DNA of 35,060 nucleotides from a virus, in IMG/VR virus record IMGVR_UViG_3300025759_000030, positions 1 to 35,060 of that record; one strand, 5' to 3'. Every line of letters starts with the position of its first letter. Within the stretch, counting starts at the first letter, position 1. The notes beneath the pieces are model-generated. The model was not told the origin of the DNA. It was given only the letters and a program-made list of their open reading frames with translations, and searched no databases. Positions 6,996 to 29,319 of this stretch are shown here, one piece after another. Both the position numbers and the translations under genes were made by a program.

Positions 6996-8467
6996 TACCT
7001 GCGTCCTATCGTGTTGGCATCAACGTCAATGCCCTGCGCCTTCTTCCACTCGCCACTCAAGTTCAAACGCACCCGATGGTAGCGTCCGTTAGAGCGTACA
7101 GGACAGAAGTTGTCATTGTTCAACGTAGATGCGCCACCAAATGTAAACGTATCAACCTGACGATTACGAGATGCAACTTGCGCCGTCACTGTGCCAGTAG
7201 AGTTTTCACGCAAGCTAACATATGGAATGACGTTGTTCAGCAGTGAGTGAGAACCCTTACGCACCTCAAACTCAGCAGTCTCTACTGTTGCGCTCAATGT
7301 GCTTCCTGTGAAGGTTTGGATTTTTTTGTCTTTGGAAGCGGCAAATAGAAACTCGCCGCCGCGATAGACAGCACCATCGAGAGAAGCAGGTAGAACGTCA
7401 AGATTACCAAAAGCAGCATCAAGAGCTTCAAGAGTGTAGCCAGCGGTATAAATAGGTGCAACCATATCCACAGCAACAGATGCGGTACTCCACTTATCAA
7501 GCGCATAGTTATAGATAATAAGTTTGTCAGGTGAACCATTCGTAGCCGCCGTACTCGCATAAGACCAAACAATAATCTGGCGCAGAGGGTCAGCAGAGGC
7601 AGTCATATTCTTAGCATATGCGCCGTCCCAATCCTCCAAGAAGAAGCGGTTTACCTTCTCTGCACCGATGGCGCGAGAACGCTCACCATCAAACATATAG
7701 AAGCCGTCATCAGCCAGATAGAAGACACTGTGACCAACATTACAAACGCTGCCAGCAACCTTACAACCACGCACTGTCTCCACCTTGTCAAATTGGAATA
7801 TCAGTGGCGCACCGATGTAGCTACCGCGCACAATGCCTTTCTCCATAAGAATAGTGGCATACTCACCGCCGACAAGTCCAGTCACATCGCCCATATCCTG
7901 AATGTCTTGGAAGTCAGCTTGAGTCGTAGCAGACACAGCCCAGCTTGTGTAATCACCCAGCGCAGACCAGCGCACACGGTATGGCTTGTTGCCATCTGTT
8001 GAATCATGCGTAAAGCCAGTCATTACAAAGTCACGCACAACAGCAAGATACTTAGCCTTCGGAGCATCAGCAGAAAGGTCAGCAAATGGGCCAGCACTTG
8101 CAGCAGTAGTTGTTTGAATCGGGTCAGCAAAGTTTGTGCTGATTACAGCCTCACCAAACTGAACAAAACGAGGGCGGTCTTCTGCACCCGTGCTGTAGCC
8201 GCCAGCCTTGCTAATGTCATCTAACGAACCATCAGTCGTATCAAACTTGTAAATCTTTGTACGGTCAGCAGCATACAAACCGACATTGCCATCATCATCG
8301 GCAGCAGCAAACATGCCTACAATTACCTCATCGGCAACGCCACTAATGGGAGAGATGTTCTGCATGCTCTCATAGCCAGCAGCAGCAGGAATAACATTGT
8401 TAGCTACCGTGACACCTGCATTACCAAAATCTGATTGGTCAGGTAAAAATTCCCCAAAGCTAATCAT
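6995..8467 (-). CDS. P22 gp10-like packaged-DNA stabilisation / tail hub protein
   Basis: A 490-residue beta-rich protein resembling the podovirus tail accessory factors that plug the portal after packaging (P22 gp10-like, usually about 470 residues). It opens with FGEFLPDQSDFGNAGVTVAN and contains repeated short blade-like strands such as GLYAADRTKIYKFD, FYLADDGFYMFDGERS and LIIYNYALDKWSTA. It ends with RYHRVRLNLSGEWKKAQGID, the kind of C-terminal strand seen in this group. The ATG overlaps the upstream stop by four bases (ATGA). Position between the adaptor and the ejection-type proteins supports the role. The assignment rests on pattern and context and was not confirmed by a search. Confidence 0.62.
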   Translation of the reverse strand: MISFGEFLPDQSDFGNAGVTVANNVIPAAAGYESMQNISPISGVADEVIVGMFAAADDDGNVGLYAADRTKIYKFDTTDGSLDDISKAGGYSTGAEDRPRFVQFGEAVISTNFADPIQTTTAASAGPFADLSADAPKAKYLAVVRDFVMTGFTHDSTDGNKPYRVRWSALGDYTSWAVSATTQADFQDIQDMGDVTGLVGGEYATILMEKGIVRGSYIGAPLIFQFDKVETVRGCKVAGSVCNVGHSVFYLADDGFYMFDGERSRAIGAEKVNRFFLEDWDGAYAKNMTASADPLRQIIVWSYASTAATNGSPDKLIIYNYALDKWSTASVAVDMVAPIYTAGYTLEALDAAFGNLDVLPASLDGAVYRGGEFLFAASKDKKIQTFTGSTLSATVETAEFEVRKGSHSLLNNVIPYVSLRENSTGTVTAQVASRNRQVDTFTFGGASTLNNDNFCPVRSNGRYHRVRLNLSGEWKKAQGIDVDANTIGRR

Positions 8468-9345
8468 TGCGAACTCCAGCTTTCATTTCCAGCAGACACG
8501 TTTGTCCAAGTATCAGAACTAGCAGCAATCGGTGTCCAGCTCTCACCTTCAGCAGACACCACAGTCCAGCTCTCACCTTCATCTGCTACCTCAGACCATA
8601 CCTCACCTTCGGCTGCAATAATACCCCACAATTCGCCTAGTTTTTCAGCTTCTACGGCTATTGTAGCGACAGGCTGCGGGTTAGCTGTGGCGAACACTTC
8701 AAAGTTAGCAGTGACATCTGGGATGGTAGCAAAGGTTTGCAGGCTAGATGTAGCGATAGCAAGCAGGCCACCCTCTGCATTGACAGACGCAGATGTAGAT
8801 GCAGAGCTATCGCCAACTCGCACACGGATGCCAGCAGAGCTAACACTTGCAGAGGAAGAGATAGATGATGCACCAATTTGGATGCGAATACCGTCGGCAG
8901 ATACGGAGACATTTGCAGACGGTGACGATGCACCAATGACAACCCTAATAGCTTCCGCTGTCGCTATAGCCGATACAGATGGTTGGGCAGCGCCGACAAC
9001 AATACGCACACCCTCTGCCGACATTGTGGACGGCCCAGCAAGTGCAGACGCGCCGAACTGGATACGGATACCATCAGCGGCGACAGTGCTGGTAACATTT
9101 ATGTTACTCGCGCCAAGCTGGATGCGTATGCCTTCAGAGGTTACGGTAGATGATGTAGATGCTGCGGCAGCACCGTCAAAGATACCAAAGCCAACAGCGG
9201 CTACAGATGCAGATGTGGATGGGGTGGATTCACCCTCACGCAGGGCAGCAGTCAGCCAGATAGAACTATCTAGTGAATACGGGAGACTGTCTAAGTCACC
9301 CCAGTTATCTAACTGCTCAAGTGTTGGCCCTACGATGTCAGCCAT
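8464..9345 (-). CDS. repeat-built virion protein: seven clear 20-residue units plus Trp decapeptide tail
   Basis: A 293-residue protein that is mostly tandem repeat. From residue 52 to 191 seven consecutive units of exactly 20 residues follow the pattern G-[IV]-R-[IV]-x-[ILFV]-G-A-S then a Ser/Ala/Val-rich half; the first unit is degenerate, and two weaker units continue to about 231. From about 236 to the end Trp recurs every ten residues (240, 250, 260, 270, 280, 290) in GESWTVVSAE-like units. A strict 20-residue period suggests a beta-solenoid or stacked beta-sandwich. The N-terminus (MADIVGPTLEQLDNWGDLDS) also contains Trp repeats. It lies among tail genes, two bases after the downstream-numbered 129-aa gene. 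An extended fibre, spike or surface-adhesion role is inferred. Confidence 0.6.
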   Translation of the reverse strand: MADIVGPTLEQLDNWGDLDSLPYSLDSSIWLTAALREGESTPSTSASVAAVGFGIFDGAAAASTSSTVTSEGIRIQLGASNINVTSTVAADGIRIQFGASALAGPSTMSAEGVRIVVGAAQPSVSAIATAEAIRVVIGASSPSANVSVSADGIRIQIGASSISSSASVSSAGIRVRVGDSSASTSASVNAEGGLLAIATSSLQTFATIPDVTANFEVFATANPQPVATIAVEAEKLGELWGIIAAEGEVWSEVADEGESWTVVSAEGESWTPIAASSDTWTNVSAGNESWSSQ

Positions 9346-18249: not shown

Positions 18250-18470
18250 CAAGCCTCTCCGTAAATGCCATCTTCCGTAACGCGGATGGACGAAATAATC
18301 TCCATGTATTCGTCAGGCGAAATCTCCGCCATTTGACCACAATACGCAGACGCAAGCAAGGTCAAGTTCAACAGGTCGTCCCAGTCAGTGCCGAGACCAT
18401 TTAGGCCATCAAGGGTGGCAACCAAGATGTCAAAGTCATCTGTGTCTTCTTCAAACTCAATATAAGCCAT
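18249..18470 (-). CDS. small acidic protein of unknown function (73 aa)
   Basis: A 73-residue acidic protein (MAYIEFEEDTDDFDILVATL onward), with a helical end (SPDEYMEIISSIRVTE). Its ATG overlaps the terminase stop by one base (TGATG). It is the only acidic member of the small-gene chain between terminase and portal, and could pair with one of the very basic neighbours. That pairing is only a suggestion. Function unknown. Confidence 0.5.
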   Translation of the reverse strand: MAYIEFEEDTDDFDILVATLDGLNGLGTDWDDLLNLTLLASAYCGQMAEISPDEYMEIISSIRVTEDGIYGEA

Positions 18471-19870
18471 CAGACGACCCAGTTCGCTTTCTCATAATTT
18501 ATTGACCTGTTCCATTTGTGGCGCGAGCCGTCTTTGCCGATGCTGGCGCGACCAGCAAAGGTCAGGCAGAAGGAGTCGGCAAGGTCAGGTGAGTTGAGGC
18601 CACGACGTTTCATCTCGTCCTTGCTCTCAACCTTGAGCTTACCATTGGAGGTAAACTTAAAGCGCGGCTTGGACAGGTCGTCTATTAGCTCCTCTTGCGG
18701 CGGAATGGTGCAGTCCCGCGACTCGAACCATTCTTTTGCGAGAAACCACAACTCATCTCGTAAACGCCCATATCTGTCGCCCATTGCAGGTGACTCCGCG
18801 ACGTTGATACCGCGCACAGGAAGGTCAAGTTCCATGAGACGGTCAACAACGCCAGCACCAAGACCGATACTATCAACCAGTATTTCAGCAGGACGGTCGC
18901 CCCATCGAGTCGTTTCGTATTCATTGAGTATAATCCCACAGACCTCCATGAGGTCTTTGTTGCGCCAAGTTTTGATAGGCTCTGTTACAACATTACCCTT
19001 GCGTTTGCATAGAGCTGTTTTGTCCGTACCGAAACGTGCCACGTCAAGACCCCATACAACGGGGGTGGTTTCTGCTGCTTGCTGCTCTCGCGTGGATGCT
19101 GCCTGCAAGAGATGCAGTGGTACAACCACGTCGTCGTCGGCTTCAGGCCACTCTCCAAGAACACGAACTCGGTAGATGTTGCTGTCTTCGCCATACTTGA
19201 GTTTCATATCCTCCATGAAGGTTTTACTCACCTGAGTACTATCAGATGATGCGACCTTCATTGTAAAGAACCTATCTCTCATTTTATTGAAGGCTTCATA
19301 GAAGTAGCCAGACGTGCGAGTCGGGTTGCCCGTCATCACAGTCTTCGCACCCTCAGTGGACATAGCACCCTCTCCGACCTCGAAGATGATGTCGTCCACA
19401 CCAGATGCCTCATCAATCAAGAACAGCATATTGGGTGAGTGGAAACCTTGCAGCGCCTCTGGAGTTTCACGACGTGCAGTTCGGGCGACAGCAAAACTGT
19501 CCTGCCCCGTAAGCTCAACTTTGTCAGACTTCACTTCAATTAGTTCTTTCAGGCCCTCTGGCATACGACGATGCCACTTTGCGACCTCTGCCCATAAAAT
19601 GTCTGACAACTGACTAGCAGTGTTGGCAGTACATGCTATCCGACTGGGAGAGCGTGTCAATACCCACCAGAGAATCAACCAAGAAAGAAATGCAGTCTTG
19701 CCGATACCGTGACCAGAGCGGATGGCTACGCGGTCATTATCCCGCACAGCATACAAAGCATTACGCTGCCACTCCTCTGGACTGGCCTGCAAGATAGACT
19801 CAACGAATAATACTGGGTCGAGAGCAATGGCAAGCAATAGCTCCTCAACAGACATGTTTTCTTTTTCCAT
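18470..19870 (-). CDS. terL: terminase large subunit (ATPase and nuclease)
   Basis: The DNA-packaging motor. The start at 19870 (MEKENMSVEELLL, 466 aa) is preferred: an AAGGAG ribosome site lies seven bases upstream, and the open frame further up to 20074 runs through the repeat region without family-like sequence. Visible motifs are Walker A GHGIGKT (53-59), Walker B LFLIDEA (149-155), a coupling MTGNPTR (179-185), and nuclease acidic residues in GLDVARFGTDK (D276), ILVDSIG (D333) and SPDLADSF (D429, D432). Length is normal. It lies downstream of a putative small subunit, after a 415-bp gap that holds the repeat cluster. Confidence 0.93.
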   Translation of the reverse strand: MEKENMSVEELLLAIALDPVLFVESILQASPEEWQRNALYAVRDNDRVAIRSGHGIGKTAFLSWLILWWVLTRSPSRIACTANTASQLSDILWAEVAKWHRRMPEGLKELIEVKSDKVELTGQDSFAVARTARRETPEALQGFHSPNMLFLIDEASGVDDIIFEVGEGAMSTEGAKTVMTGNPTRTSGYFYEAFNKMRDRFFTMKVASSDSTQVSKTFMEDMKLKYGEDSNIYRVRVLGEWPEADDDVVVPLHLLQAASTREQQAAETTPVVWGLDVARFGTDKTALCKRKGNVVTEPIKTWRNKDLMEVCGIILNEYETTRWGDRPAEILVDSIGLGAGVVDRLMELDLPVRGINVAESPAMGDRYGRLRDELWFLAKEWFESRDCTIPPQEELIDDLSKPRFKFTSNGKLKVESKDEMKRRGLNSPDLADSFCLTFAGRASIGKDGSRHKWNRSINYEKANWVV

Positions 19871-20285
19871 CTCTCTCTCCTTGTTATGATGGGGCGAGCC
19901 GAAAGGGAAAGAAGCCCGCCCCACCGTCGGGAGCGTCAAGGAGGAGAAACGCTCAACCGATTTTGTTATCTCCTCTGTTGCAAATATGACACAGGGCGGA
20001 GCGGTCTGCAAGGGGTGACAATCTGACATGGGGGGTACGGCACACTGCCACCCTCCCCTACGGCACACTGCCACCCTAATATATCAGAAAGAATATATCA
20101 TTTAATCTTATTTACTACGGCACAGTGCCACCCCTAAATGAGAGGAAGAAAAAAGAAGAAAAAAATTTTTATGGGGGTAGTTACTTACGAGCTGTGGAGA
20201 ACAGGGGGGGTGTTGTAAAAAGGTCACAGTGTTGGTTTATATATATACGTATAACGCACCCCCGCCGCTCAAATCAAAGGGGGGT
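19871..20285. other. 415-bp non-coding gap with repeat cluster, candidate origin or packaging region
   Basis: No gene with a ribosome site was found here. Contents from left to right: a possible hairpin (GGGGCGAGC / GCCCGCCCC, one mismatch) just upstream of the terminase start (about 19891-19922), the three 19-bp elements with their AT-rich spacer (20036-20134), a purine-rich run (about 20140-20163), TGTGGAGAA (20193-20201, one base from the inverted DnaA box TGTGGATAA), a G run, and an AT-rich TATATATATACGTATA stretch (about 20239-20255). A replication origin or a packaging start site are the main possibilities. Confidence 0.5.
20036..20134 (+). repeat. composite iteron-like site, copy 1 (three 19-bp elements with AT-rich spacer)
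   Basis: Elements at 20036-20054 and 20059-20077 are identical (TACGGCACACTGCCACCCT). The third, 20116-20134, is TACGGCACAGTGCCACCCC. Each contains an inverted repeat (GGCA...TGCC). A 38-bp AT-rich spacer between elements 2 and 3 carries AATATATCA twice. The same arrangement recurs on the minus strand at 24049-24157. Protein-binding iterons around an unwinding element are the likeliest reading. Confidence 0.75.
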
Positions 20286-20657
20286 CTAATCGCTCTTATC
20301 GTTCTCGCTCTGTTCTTCGCTAAATTCTGCCTCTATAACTTGCGCTTTCTCACTACGTTGTAATTCCAATGCGCTTTGCACATTAGATAGAGCAGCCGTT
20401 AGGCTATCGCTTGGCGATATCTCAGCATTAAGGTTGATGTTCTTAGGCATAAGCGTTGCCAATAGGCGCAAGGCTTCAATAGGCCGCTCATCTATTTCAC
20501 TAGCAATAGTCTGAGCCAGCGCATCTTGCCCGCCGTGCTTCTCTATTGCCTTGTCAAATACATTTGCAAGCTGACTTGATAGCCGTTGCCAGCCCCCACC
20601 ATGCCCACCATTCTTATAAGGTTTACGCCCGCGTGTTTCTTTAACTGAATTAGTCAT
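20286..20657 (-). CDS. putative terminase small subunit (123 aa)
   Basis: A 123-residue protein whose start (20657) is preceded by an AGGA site ten bases away. The N-terminus is basic and Gly-rich (RGRKPYKNGGHGGGW), the middle is helical (ANVFDKAIEKHGGQDALAQT), and a PIEALRLLATLMPKNINLN segment lies near 75-93. A helical acidic tail (residues 95-123) would be the oligomer- or large-subunit-contact part. The LRLLATLMPK-type segment is common in small proteins encoded just before phage terminases. It is the first gene of the late block. No helix-turn-helix was identified with certainty, so the role rests on position and pattern. Confidence 0.5.
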   Translation of the reverse strand: MTNSVKETRGRKPYKNGGHGGGWQRLSSQLANVFDKAIEKHGGQDALAQTIASEIDERPIEALRLLATLMPKNINLNAEISPSDSLTAALSNVQSALELQRSEKAQVIEAEFSEEQSENDKSD

Positions 20658-23120: not shown

Positions 23121-23837
23121 TTAAAGGCTATCTAAGCTAGGCACTGTGGGTCTAAGGTTATCTGGCAGGTCATCATGTGCCAAATCAAACGGGTCAAACT
23201 TCGGCGCAGTATGCCCCGCCTTAATCAAATCCATGTTAATCTTGCCGCTATCATCTGGCAGATGTTCGGCTGGCGTTGCCTGTTTAGCTGGCGGAGCAAT
23301 GTCTGCATTACCGCCCAGCCGTTCAATCGCTTTGAGTGGTATCTTGCGGAGAATTTCACCCATGCCGCGCCCTAACTCACCGCTTGCGATTTGCCTGTCG
23401 GTTTCGGCTAGTGCCTTTCTCGCGCCTTCCAGCGTCCAGCCTTCGCCTTTCTTTCTGGTTTCGTCTGCCCCTGCCTGTCCACTGAATACCCGCGCCTCTT
23501 TCTTTGTGCCGTGTTTAGCTTCCCATGCCCGATTGGCTTGGTTGGTTGCGCTGATAATGTCGGCAAGGTTAAACCAAAAACGAGAACGCGCCTTTGACGT
23601 GCAGCCTCGCCAGATAGTGCGGAGCAAGTCCTTATAGCTGTCATTGTTCGGCACATCGGCACTGATGCGACTGTTGATAGCTTCCGCGACCTCTTGCATG
23701 TAAATGCCTGCCCCGTCGCCTTCTTTCAAATGCGTGTGCGGCTGATACAAAAGCCCCATCTGTTTGCAAAAGTTTTCTCTTACAAGTGCGATGCGCGACT
23801 CGTAAGTCATGGTATCTTTCTTTTCAAATTCTTTCAT
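23121..23837 (-). CDS. protein of unknown function in the replication region (238 aa)
   Basis: A 238-residue hydrophilic protein with an AAAGGGACTAAG ribosome site. The N-terminal 100 residues look folded and helical (TYESRIALVRENFCKQMGLL; YKDLLRTIWRGCTSKARSRF), then a basic linker and a Pro/Asp-rich C-terminal tail (TAPKFDPFDLAHDDLPDNL). It is last in the leftward set that includes the winged-helix gene, the place held by gene P (helicase loader) in lambda. No helicase-loader motif was seen, so this is only a positional hint. Confidence 0.45.
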   Translation of the reverse strand: MKEFEKKDTMTYESRIALVRENFCKQMGLLYQPHTHLKEGDGAGIYMQEVAEAINSRISADVPNNDSYKDLLRTIWRGCTSKARSRFWFNLADIISATNQANRAWEAKHGTKKEARVFSGQAGADETRKKGEGWTLEGARKALAETDRQIASGELGRGMGEILRKIPLKAIERLGGNADIAPPAKQATPAEHLPDDSGKINMDLIKAGHTAPKFDPFDLAHDDLPDNLRPTVPSLDSL

Positions 23838-23981: not shown

Positions 23982-24426
23982 TGCTCTTACCTAATATCTG
24001 ATTAGCGAAATCTGTCCAATCTGTTTCTTTCTCATCTTCTTCTTTCGAGGGGTGGCGTTCTGCCGTAGTAATAGAAGAAGATATATTATCTGATTTATTA
24101 GTTGATATATTAATGGGGCGGCACGTTGCCGTAGCTGGCGCGGCACTCTGCCGCCCCTCATTCGGCTTGTGTATCGTGTAGAGATTGCTCGTTTGTCTGC
24201 CGCCATTGTTGCGGCGAGAGACAAAAAGATACCCCTGTTTCTTTAGTGCCGCCACCTTCCTTTGCACTGTTCTGCTGTCCAGCCCCGTTAGCTTGGCAAT
24301 ACGCGCCGCGCTGGGAAAGCACTGCCATTGCTCATCAGCATGTTTGGCAATCATAAGCAGCACAAACTTAGCCGTAGGGTCGGCTATCGGCTGCTCACAA
24401 ACCCAGTCCATCGCCTTGTAACTCAT
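23950..24426 (-). CDS. winged-helix replication-initiator-like protein carrying internal iterons (158 aa)
   Basis: A 158-residue protein. Residues 1-85 form a winged helix of the HTH_36/initiator type: KAMDWVCEQPIADPTAKFVL, CFPSAARIAKLTGLDSRTVQ (recognition part), KVAALKKQGYLFVSRRNNGG (wing). Residues about 90-130 are a low-complexity Asn/Ser/Thr/Ala linker, and the DNA encoding it is the repeat cluster 24049-24157. The C-terminus is acidic. Gene and repeats together copy the plan of lambda O, whose iterons lie within its own linker region. It overlaps the upstream gene by four bases (ATGA). Replication initiation is inferred; a transcription-regulator role is also possible. Confidence 0.6.
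   Translation of the reverse strand: MSYKAMDWVCEQPIADPTAKFVLLMIAKHADEQWQCFPSAARIAKLTGLDSRTVQRKVAALKKQGYLFVSRRNNGGRQTSNLYTIHKPNEGRQSAAPATATCRPINISTNKSDNISSSITTAERHPSKEEDEKETDWTDFANQILGKSNGRDDSKMGD
24049..24157 (-). repeat. composite iteron-like site, copy 2, inside the winged-helix gene
   Basis: On the minus strand 24133-24115 reads TACGGCAACGTGCCGCCCC and 24067-24049 reads TACGGCAGAACGCCACCCC. On the plus strand 24139-24157 reads CGCGGCACTCTGCCGCCCC. The 47-bp spacer between the first two is AT-rich and holds AATATATCA once, plus near copies. Order, spacing style and the spacer motif repeat those at 20036-20134. Confidence 0.75.
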
Positions 24427-25309: not shown

Positions 25310-25457
25310 AAAAACACCCTTTCGAAAAATAATGTTCTGGCAACTCTCTCTTTGCCTCTTCACACATTTGCGCGGTTGGGAATGGCGGCGAGTATTTAAT
25401 GGAACGCTCGTCACCCCAAGCCAATATCCAACCCGTTATTGCGACGACCTCAATCAA
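25272..25457 (-). CDS. small protein of unknown function (61 aa)
   Basis: A 61-residue protein with a hydrophobic N-terminus (IEVVAITGWILAWG) that could be a signal anchor or a beta strand, followed by FPTAQMCEEAKRELPEHYF and a Cys-containing basic end. The FPTAQMCEEA-like segment occurs in many small phage proteins of this type. It overlaps the repressor gene by eight bases and the nuclease gene by 38. Function unknown. Confidence 0.45.
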   Translation of the reverse strand: MIEVVAITGWILAWGDERSIKYSPPFPTAQMCEEAKRELPEHYFSKGCFYVKDGEKQGFKF

Positions 25458-25659
25458 TGGTCGGCACGAAATCTAAGGCAGTGACTTTGCCTTTGGTTGC
25501 CTTCGTAATGTATGGCACTGTCGTCCAATCGGGACGCTGCTTGTCGGCACACCAACGCCAGACGACTGACTGATTTACAGGTCGCCCGACCTCCGCCATC
25601 ATTCGTGCAAACCCGTATGTTGAAATGCCTTCAATAGTAATAAATTCTTTTATGTGCAT
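25450..25659 (-). CDS. Cro/CI-like repressor (69 aa)
   Basis: A 69-residue helix-turn-helix protein of Cro type. The core is YGFARMMAEVGRPVNQSVVW followed by RWCADKQRPDWTTVPYI, with conserved residues of the HTH (A-x-x-x-G then S-x-x-x-W-R). An AAAGGAG ribosome site precedes the start at 25659. It faces a plus-strand promoter with a palindromic spacer (25737-25765), so it likely controls the divergent early transcripts, including its own. No integrase was found with it. An antitoxin-like or YdaS-like identity is an alternative. Confidence 0.65.
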   Translation of the reverse strand: MHIKEFITIEGISTYGFARMMAEVGRPVNQSVVWRWCADKQRPDWTTVPYITKATKGKVTALDFVPTID

Positions 25660-28510: not shown

Positions 28511-28849
28511 ATGAGCGGAACAGCCTACAAATGCGGTCAATGCAATGGGCAGGGTGTTCTGCTCATCAATATTTCATCAGATGGAGAAGGCGGCAGCTTC
28601 ATGGAGAAGCCCTGTCCGACCTGTGGGGGAAGAGGATTGATTACAAAAGCAGAGCTAATGACGTGTGCAGCAGATGCCACGTTTGAACCAAATGAAATGA
28701 TTGCCATACCTATGACAGGCGCAATGCGTGTCTATGTGGACGGCGAAGTATTCCAACGCAAGATGTCATCGCGTCAGCTATACAAGCTGGCACACTATGC
28801 GCTAGGCGTGGCGATGGAGACAGAAGCATATGAAAAGGAAAACAAATGA
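28511..28849 (+). CDS. DnaJ-type zinc-finger protein (112 aa)
   Basis: A 112-residue protein with two DnaJ-type CxxCxGxG motifs near the start: CGQCNGQG (8-15) and CPTCGGRG (35-42), which together bind zinc. The rest is mixed, with a beta strand (MTGAMRVYVDGEVFQRK) and a C-terminal helix (MSSRQLYKLAHYALGVAM). No J domain is present. It overlaps the DnaA-like gene by four bases (ATGA). Possible roles are replication-complex assembly or host control. Compare the shorter one at 22843. Confidence 0.6.
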   Translation: MSGTAYKCGQCNGQGVLLINISSDGEGGSFMEKPCPTCGGRGLITKAELMTCAADATFEPNEMIAIPMTGAMRVYVDGEVFQRKMSSRQLYKLAHYALGVAMETEAYEKENK

Positions 28850-29319
28850 AGGTAGATGTTCAAGTTACCCTGAAAGATGAAGCCGAAAATGTTGAGGAGT
28901 TTACTATCGGCAGTGCATTGAAAGCAGTCTCAGAGGTTTTTGGCGTAAGGAAAGATGACCTACTTAGCTCACGCAGGGCTAGGTATATAACTACGCCACG
29001 ATTCGCTTTGATGTATCTTGGTTACTACATGACGCACAATAGCACTACCACAGTCGGCAGGTTTTTAGACCGTGACCACACGACAATCATTCATGGCTGT
29101 CGCCGTGCTATCGAACTCAAGCGCAGCAACAAAGCGTTTGCAAAGAAACTAGAGGAAGCAACACAGTTGGCGATTAAATATGACAGACAACGCAGAAAAA
29201 AGATTGAAGCCTTCAAGCGGGAAGTCGAAGAGCGAATGGAAAGCGCTTGCAAAGGAGTGGCGCTTGAGGGCTACATTAGCGGAGAGAAGGTTGTCTTTGA
29301 TAGCGTCTATACCGAATGA
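28846..29319 (+). CDS. free-standing DnaA domain IV-like protein (157 aa)
   Basis: A 157-residue protein whose residues about 24-92 match the DNA-binding domain IV of DnaA. ALKAVSEVFGVRKDDLLSSR, then RARYITTPRFALMYLGYYMT and VGRFLDRDHTTIIHGCRRAI follow the DnaA pattern, including the signature DHTTIIHG that reads DnaA boxes. There is no AAA+ ATPase domain, so it can bind DNA but not open it alone. The C-terminal 60 residues are a charged helix and a short beta end. It may block or redirect host DnaA, or recruit the host replisome to the phage origin. Confidence 0.82.
   Translation: MKVDVQVTLKDEAENVEEFTIGSALKAVSEVFGVRKDDLLSSRRARYITTPRFALMYLGYYMTHNSTTTVGRFLDRDHTTIIHGCRRAIELKRSNKAFAKKLEEATQLAIKYDRQRRKKIEAFKREVEERMESACKGVALEGYISGEKVVFDSVYTE

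Follow-up and report, generated by a model that had tools for sequence, protein, structure and literature searches.

In phage lambda the origin of replication lies inside the gene of its own initiator (PMC4488673, PMC7466680), and its iterons are annotated in the lambda record J02459. The Bacillus phage SPP1 has two origins, oriL within gene 38 and oriR between genes of the late region, both made up of repeats and an AT-rich DNA unwinding element (DUE) and both bound by gp38 (PMC6316719), and it has been proposed that forks stall where gp38 is bound at oriR and that this sets off concatemer replication (PMC3485210). The subject of this work is the IMG/VR virus record IMGVR_UViG_3300025759_000030, a stretch of 35,060 bases from a phage of a marine group (referred to here as the window), which carries a non-coding cluster of dyad repeats at 20012-20134, between the putative small terminase (TerS) gene and the large terminase gene (terL) and just upstream of the latter, and a cluster of the same repeats inside the gene for an O-like replication initiator. 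The two arrays vary in concert in their sequences and, one contig excepted, also follow the O protein; on these sequence comparisons the terminase-side array is probably a second origin-type binding site for the phage's own O-like initiator.

Compared by layout and not by sequence, the locus resembles SPP1 in that one array is contained in the initiator gene while another, with the same repeats and an AT-rich tract, is intergenic and upstream of terL (such pairs were found in 10 phages), and in the order of an initiator gene followed by a loader gene, which here is a candidate loader. SPP1 belongs to another phage group with other sequences, the distance between its origins differs from that here (~4 kb versus 12-13 kb), and in the phages described here the array pair changes type jointly among close relatives. 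Lambda shares with the window an O-like winged-helix protein and iterons within the O gene, but it has a single origin, and the same O-array scan found no second array in lambda, where the scan background is high. Lambda also has four O-gene iterons versus three here, of a different sequence, and its AT tract is not exceptionally unstable within its genome.

Two clusters of one rare iteron

The terminase-side array consists of 19-bp dyad iterons around an AT-rich spacer. A preliminary description of the window had reported the similarity between this array and the O-gene cluster, and all of its numerical details hold on rechecking the sequence: the elements at 20036-20054 and 20059-20077 are identical, the element at 20116-20134 matches the minus strand of 24049-24067 at 16 of 19 positions, the nine-mer AATATATCA occurs twice in the terminase-side spacer and is found in the O-gene spacer too, and TTAC terminates both spacers directly before TACGGCA. 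A weak, inverted fourth element stands at one end of the terminase-side array, and several relatives also show an inverted element at that end.

The motif TACGGCA-N3-YGCCRCCCY was surveyed over the 35 kb with up to two mismatches allowed and 100 shuffles as controls. There were six matches, three in each cluster and none elsewhere, versus 0.08 expected and a maximum of three among the shuffles. The exact form TACGGCA-N3-TGCCACCC was searched for in 2.9 million viral contigs and was present in three copies per contig in nine contigs, in every case in the terminase array of this group; single copies in 25 other contigs lie in unrelated contexts and look like chance matches. Many unclustered matches, or the absence of both clusters from close relatives, had been named beforehand as grounds for giving up the similarity, and neither was found.

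The stability of the spacers was assessed by ranking all 45-bp windows of the record, with 35 bp and 60 bp also used. Of all 45-bp windows in the record, the least stable falls in the O-gene spacer and the next in the terminase spacer; the terminase spacer ranks second at 35 and 45 bp and eleventh at 60 bp, where the O-gene spacer ranks second. In six relatives the spacers rank 1-4 within the locus examined. Extreme instability is not a general property of origins, because the AT tract of lambda ranks 39th in its own genome by the same measure.

The O-gene cluster (24049-24157), with its dyad iterons and AT-rich tract, lies in the part of the gene that encodes a linker of the lambda-O-like initiator, and in its sequence it is laid out as lambda-type origins usually are. 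The AlphaFold2 model of the initiator has a confident winged helix (residues 1-85) that matches MarR-like winged-helix structures in the PDB, a disordered linker (~91-130), which is the part encoded by the array, and a short C-terminal helix (138-144).

Array types in relatives and their pairing with O

The relatives were marine phage contigs gathered from IMG/VR through terminase and initiator searches, and their array types were assigned by reading the sequences. Most close relatives have at this site an array of the same layout, with one iteron, an AT-rich stretch and two to three iterons in the orientation of the terminase, and the array forms a cassette of ~130 bp that switches sequence type between flanks that are ~96-100% identical. 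The GGCA-N3-TGCC type of the window is shared by contigs L006, L007 and L008; a GGTGGGCA-related form is present in L009 and in L022/L023/L093, TGACA-N3-TGTCA in L010/L017, TAGTCA-N3-TGACTA in L076 and L037, GTCTC/GAGAC in L025, L027 and L095, and GACA-N3-TGTC, in other contexts, in L033 and L040. For example, L017/L010 and L076 have ~96-100% identity to the window on either side of the array and only 33-70% identity across 20000-20149, and the box at 20150-20199 is 98-100% identical in compared relatives whose array type differs. In the contigs that also hold the O gene, the type of the O-gene array is that of the terminase array, the one exception being L019.

Upstream of terL in L014 and L021, where the contig stretch examined has no O gene, we observed a further array type with mixed TGACA/TGTCA elements. 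Extra sequence that is apparently a gene is inserted between the array and terL in L022 (~8160-8630) and L023 (~8440-8920).

Co-variation was measured by counting the 8-mers that an O gene, read from codon 76, has in common with a terminase-side region, for every combination of the two. For eight phages no other of the 40,320 permutations equalled the true pairing of O genes with arrays, whether k was 7, 8 or 9, and for 10 phages the true pairing was the optimal assignment, equalled by 0 of 200,000 permutations, figures that differ from strict probabilities in that some of the phages are mutually related. Two of the 10 pairs were predictions, as the O genes of L037 and L040 were retrieved after their arrays had been read, and both carry the matching iteron type. 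The type swaps happen between otherwise nearly identical genomes: compared with the window, L017 and L076 are 49% and 39% identical in O and 98% and 94% identical in the putative TerS. Because the array and O diverge in L017/L010 and L076 while the flanks and TerS stay near-identical, the co-variation does not reflect linkage.

Array similarity correlates with the similarity of the O N-terminal domain (0.47, or 0.62 without L019) and also with that of the protein encoded next to O (0.60, or 0.56 without L019). This second protein is unlikely to be the determinant of array type, because L010 and L076 are 92% identical in it and have zero array 8-mers in common, and L007 and L010 are 90% identical in it and have almost none. 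The aligned recognition helices of O gave no clean rule linking residues to bases, the types being too few.

Genes and other features around the arrays

The coordinates of the two arrays and of the genes around them are collected below.

Features of the terminase-side and O-gene loci of the window
Feature	Position	Strand	Remarks
Large terminase (terL)	18470..19867	-	Start 19867 after AAGGAG
Fourth element, weak, inverted	20012..20030	-	CATGTCAGATTGTCACCCC; also given as GGGGTGACAATCTGACATG
Iteron T1	20036..20054	+	TACGGCACACTGCCACCCT; dyad GGCA-N3-TGCC
Iteron T2	20059..20077	+	Identical to T1; 23-bp spacing
AT-rich spacer of terminase array	20078..20115	.	38 bp; AATATATCA twice
Iteron T3	20116..20134	+	TACGGCACAGTGCCACCCC
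A-rich tract and box adjoining array	20135..20210	.	20150-20199 is 98-100% identical in relatives with another array type
Putative small terminase (TerS)	20286..20657	-	Position only
Candidate helicase loader (P-like), next to O	23121..23837	-	Position only
O-like replication initiator, 158 aa	23950..24426	-	PHROG replication initiation O-like 6.6e-19; Pfam HTH_36 3.3e-15
Iteron O1, inside O gene	24049..24067	-	TACGGCAGAACGCCACCCC
AT-rich spacer inside O gene	24068..24114	.	Least stable 45-bp window of record
Iteron O2	24115..24133	-	TACGGCAACGTGCCGCCCC
Iteron O3	24139..24157	+	CGCGGCACTCTGCCGCCCC; 2 mismatches to TACGGCA-N3-YGCCRCCCY

The start of terL is conserved in relatives. Family searches gave no match for the putative small terminase, and family and structure searches gave neither a family nor a fold match for the gene next to O. 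Among the other products of the phage are an Erf-like annealing protein and PDDEXK nucleases, which are compatible with recombination-dependent replication or a theta-to-concatemer switch and are evidence for neither. The product of 28846-29316 contains the DnaA C-terminal DNA-binding domain (Pfam Bac_DnaA_C, 4.5e-18).

The leader of terL (19868-19965, minus strand) can form two hairpins whose stems vary among relatives while the pairing is kept, the pairs having been judged by eye and not counted; variants of the first stem are GAGCGT/ACGCTC, GAGCGC/GCGCTC, GTGCGCT/AGCGCAC and GAACGC/GCGTTC. The hairpins surround an invariant CTCCTCC loop that is complementary to an upstream AGAGGAG and to the AAGGAG before terL. 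At 20238-20263 on the minus strand, GGGGG is followed by a TATA-rich box, which is present too in relatives without the array and is a possible late promoter. An Rfam search gave a sub-threshold match only.

A probable second site for the initiator and its alternatives

The preliminary description had proposed that the shared architecture of the two clusters could mark a second origin, an operator or a packaging start. The architecture is borne out in that each cluster is an array of iterons and an AT-rich tract and in 10 phages the two vary jointly with the O initiator, and the same evidence supports the suggestion of a second origin. The co-variation, with L019 as the one exception, indirectly supports the view that the O protein probably binds both arrays, and this binding may unwind the DNA or block forks. 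Dimers of O would bind the dyad iterons (with arms such as GGCA...TGCC, a three-base gap and mostly a CA-N3-TG core) in the O gene and at 20012-20134, with the AT-rich tract beside them as the predicted unwinding element. On this view the O-gene array would be an ordinary lambda-type origin, and the terminase array a second origin or a site where the bound initiator stalls forks, as proposed for oriR of SPP1; stalled forks would, close to the packaging genes, set off the switch to replication that produces concatemers.

Several observations weigh against a second origin-type site. The contig 3300025098_000333 (L019) combines a type C O with a type A terminase array. Its flanks are 95.6% identical to those of the type A phage L006 over the 502 bp before O and 99.4% identical over the 4.9 kb after it, and its downstream junction falls within ~85 bp over which the types hardly differ, so that L019 may be a true recombinant or else an assembly chimera; a real recombinant would imply that mismatch between O and array can be tolerated. 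No second array was found in L086 or in C72C1, the nearest named phage, both of which have O-gene iterons. A scan with O-gene 9-mers indicates the array in most relatives, but it is weak alone because background maxima of 6-13 occur in other O-type phages, and by itself it does not lift the window's own array above background. Host DnaA boxes were considered near the array and rejected, as the window has fewer matches than shuffles give, and the GC skew tracks gene direction and does not locate an origin.

The alternatives differ in what binds the array and in what the binding does. O might bind at a site that never initiates and that serves only as a fork barrier or as a decoy titrating the initiator. 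There are precedents for such effects, as gp38 of SPP1 is proposed to stall forks at oriR (PMC3485210) and extra copies of the lambda origin in the host block lambda replication (PMC4488673), but iterons alone would suffice for this purpose, whereas every type retains the full origin layout with its unstable spacer, and we regard this explanation as unlikely while giving it more weight than any other alternative. The array could instead be an O-dependent operator that represses or activates terL transcription and ties late expression to replication. Its place upstream of terL, within the non-coding leader and downstream of the GGGGG/TATA-rich box, fits an operator, and the co-variation suits any role in which O is bound. 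For such a role, however, the strongly unstable AT-rich spacer, which resembles the O-gene spacer type by type, would be unnecessary; a scan for sigma70-type promoters found none in the array region, and phages without the array retain the same leader and terminase. An operator of this kind is accordingly somewhat less credible to us than a barrier or decoy.

Readings in which a protein other than O recognises the array are far less probable. A packaging start (a pac or cos element) recognised by the small terminase, which the preliminary description had also considered, would agree with the array adjoining terL, but the site does not follow TerS: array similarity and putative TerS similarity are uncorrelated (Spearman -0.09, P 0.52), the near-identical TerS proteins of L017 and L076 accompany wholly different arrays, and L006 and L007, with only 29-48% identity in TerS, have the same array type as the window. 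We consider it very improbable. Dyad sites are typical of repressors, and an operator for another phage DNA-binding protein, for example the YdaS-like helix-turn-helix protein at 25450-25659, was weighed in the same way. This protein does not follow array type (the 25453 protein is 84% identical to that of the window both in L006, type A, and in L114, type C), and the same iterons occur inside the O gene and follow O, which leaves such an operator as the least credible explanation of all.

Dual initiator arrays are already known from SPP1, and the new aspect is a pair of arrays that co-vary in type, of which a literature search, with most subscription papers beyond its reach, found no description. 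A second origin-type site for O could be part of a wider pattern, which we put forward tentatively as the less probable case: origin specificity may be a fast-changing two-site trait, in which the DNA-binding part of the initiator, the origin in its gene and the terminase cassette are replaced together in near-identical genomes. The pressure for this might come from elements that exploit the phage origin or act as decoys for it, and the second site may itself be functional, either as an origin or as a switch linking the mode of replication to packaging. Very few phages are known to have two origins as SPP1 does, and the function ascribed to the second one comes from a model. Arrays that change in step with the initiator gene offer a simple route to non-coding initiator sites in uncultured phages, and because this group provides many natural pairs of differing specificity in near-identical genomes, both the recognition of sites by the initiator and the role of the second site are directly testable in it.
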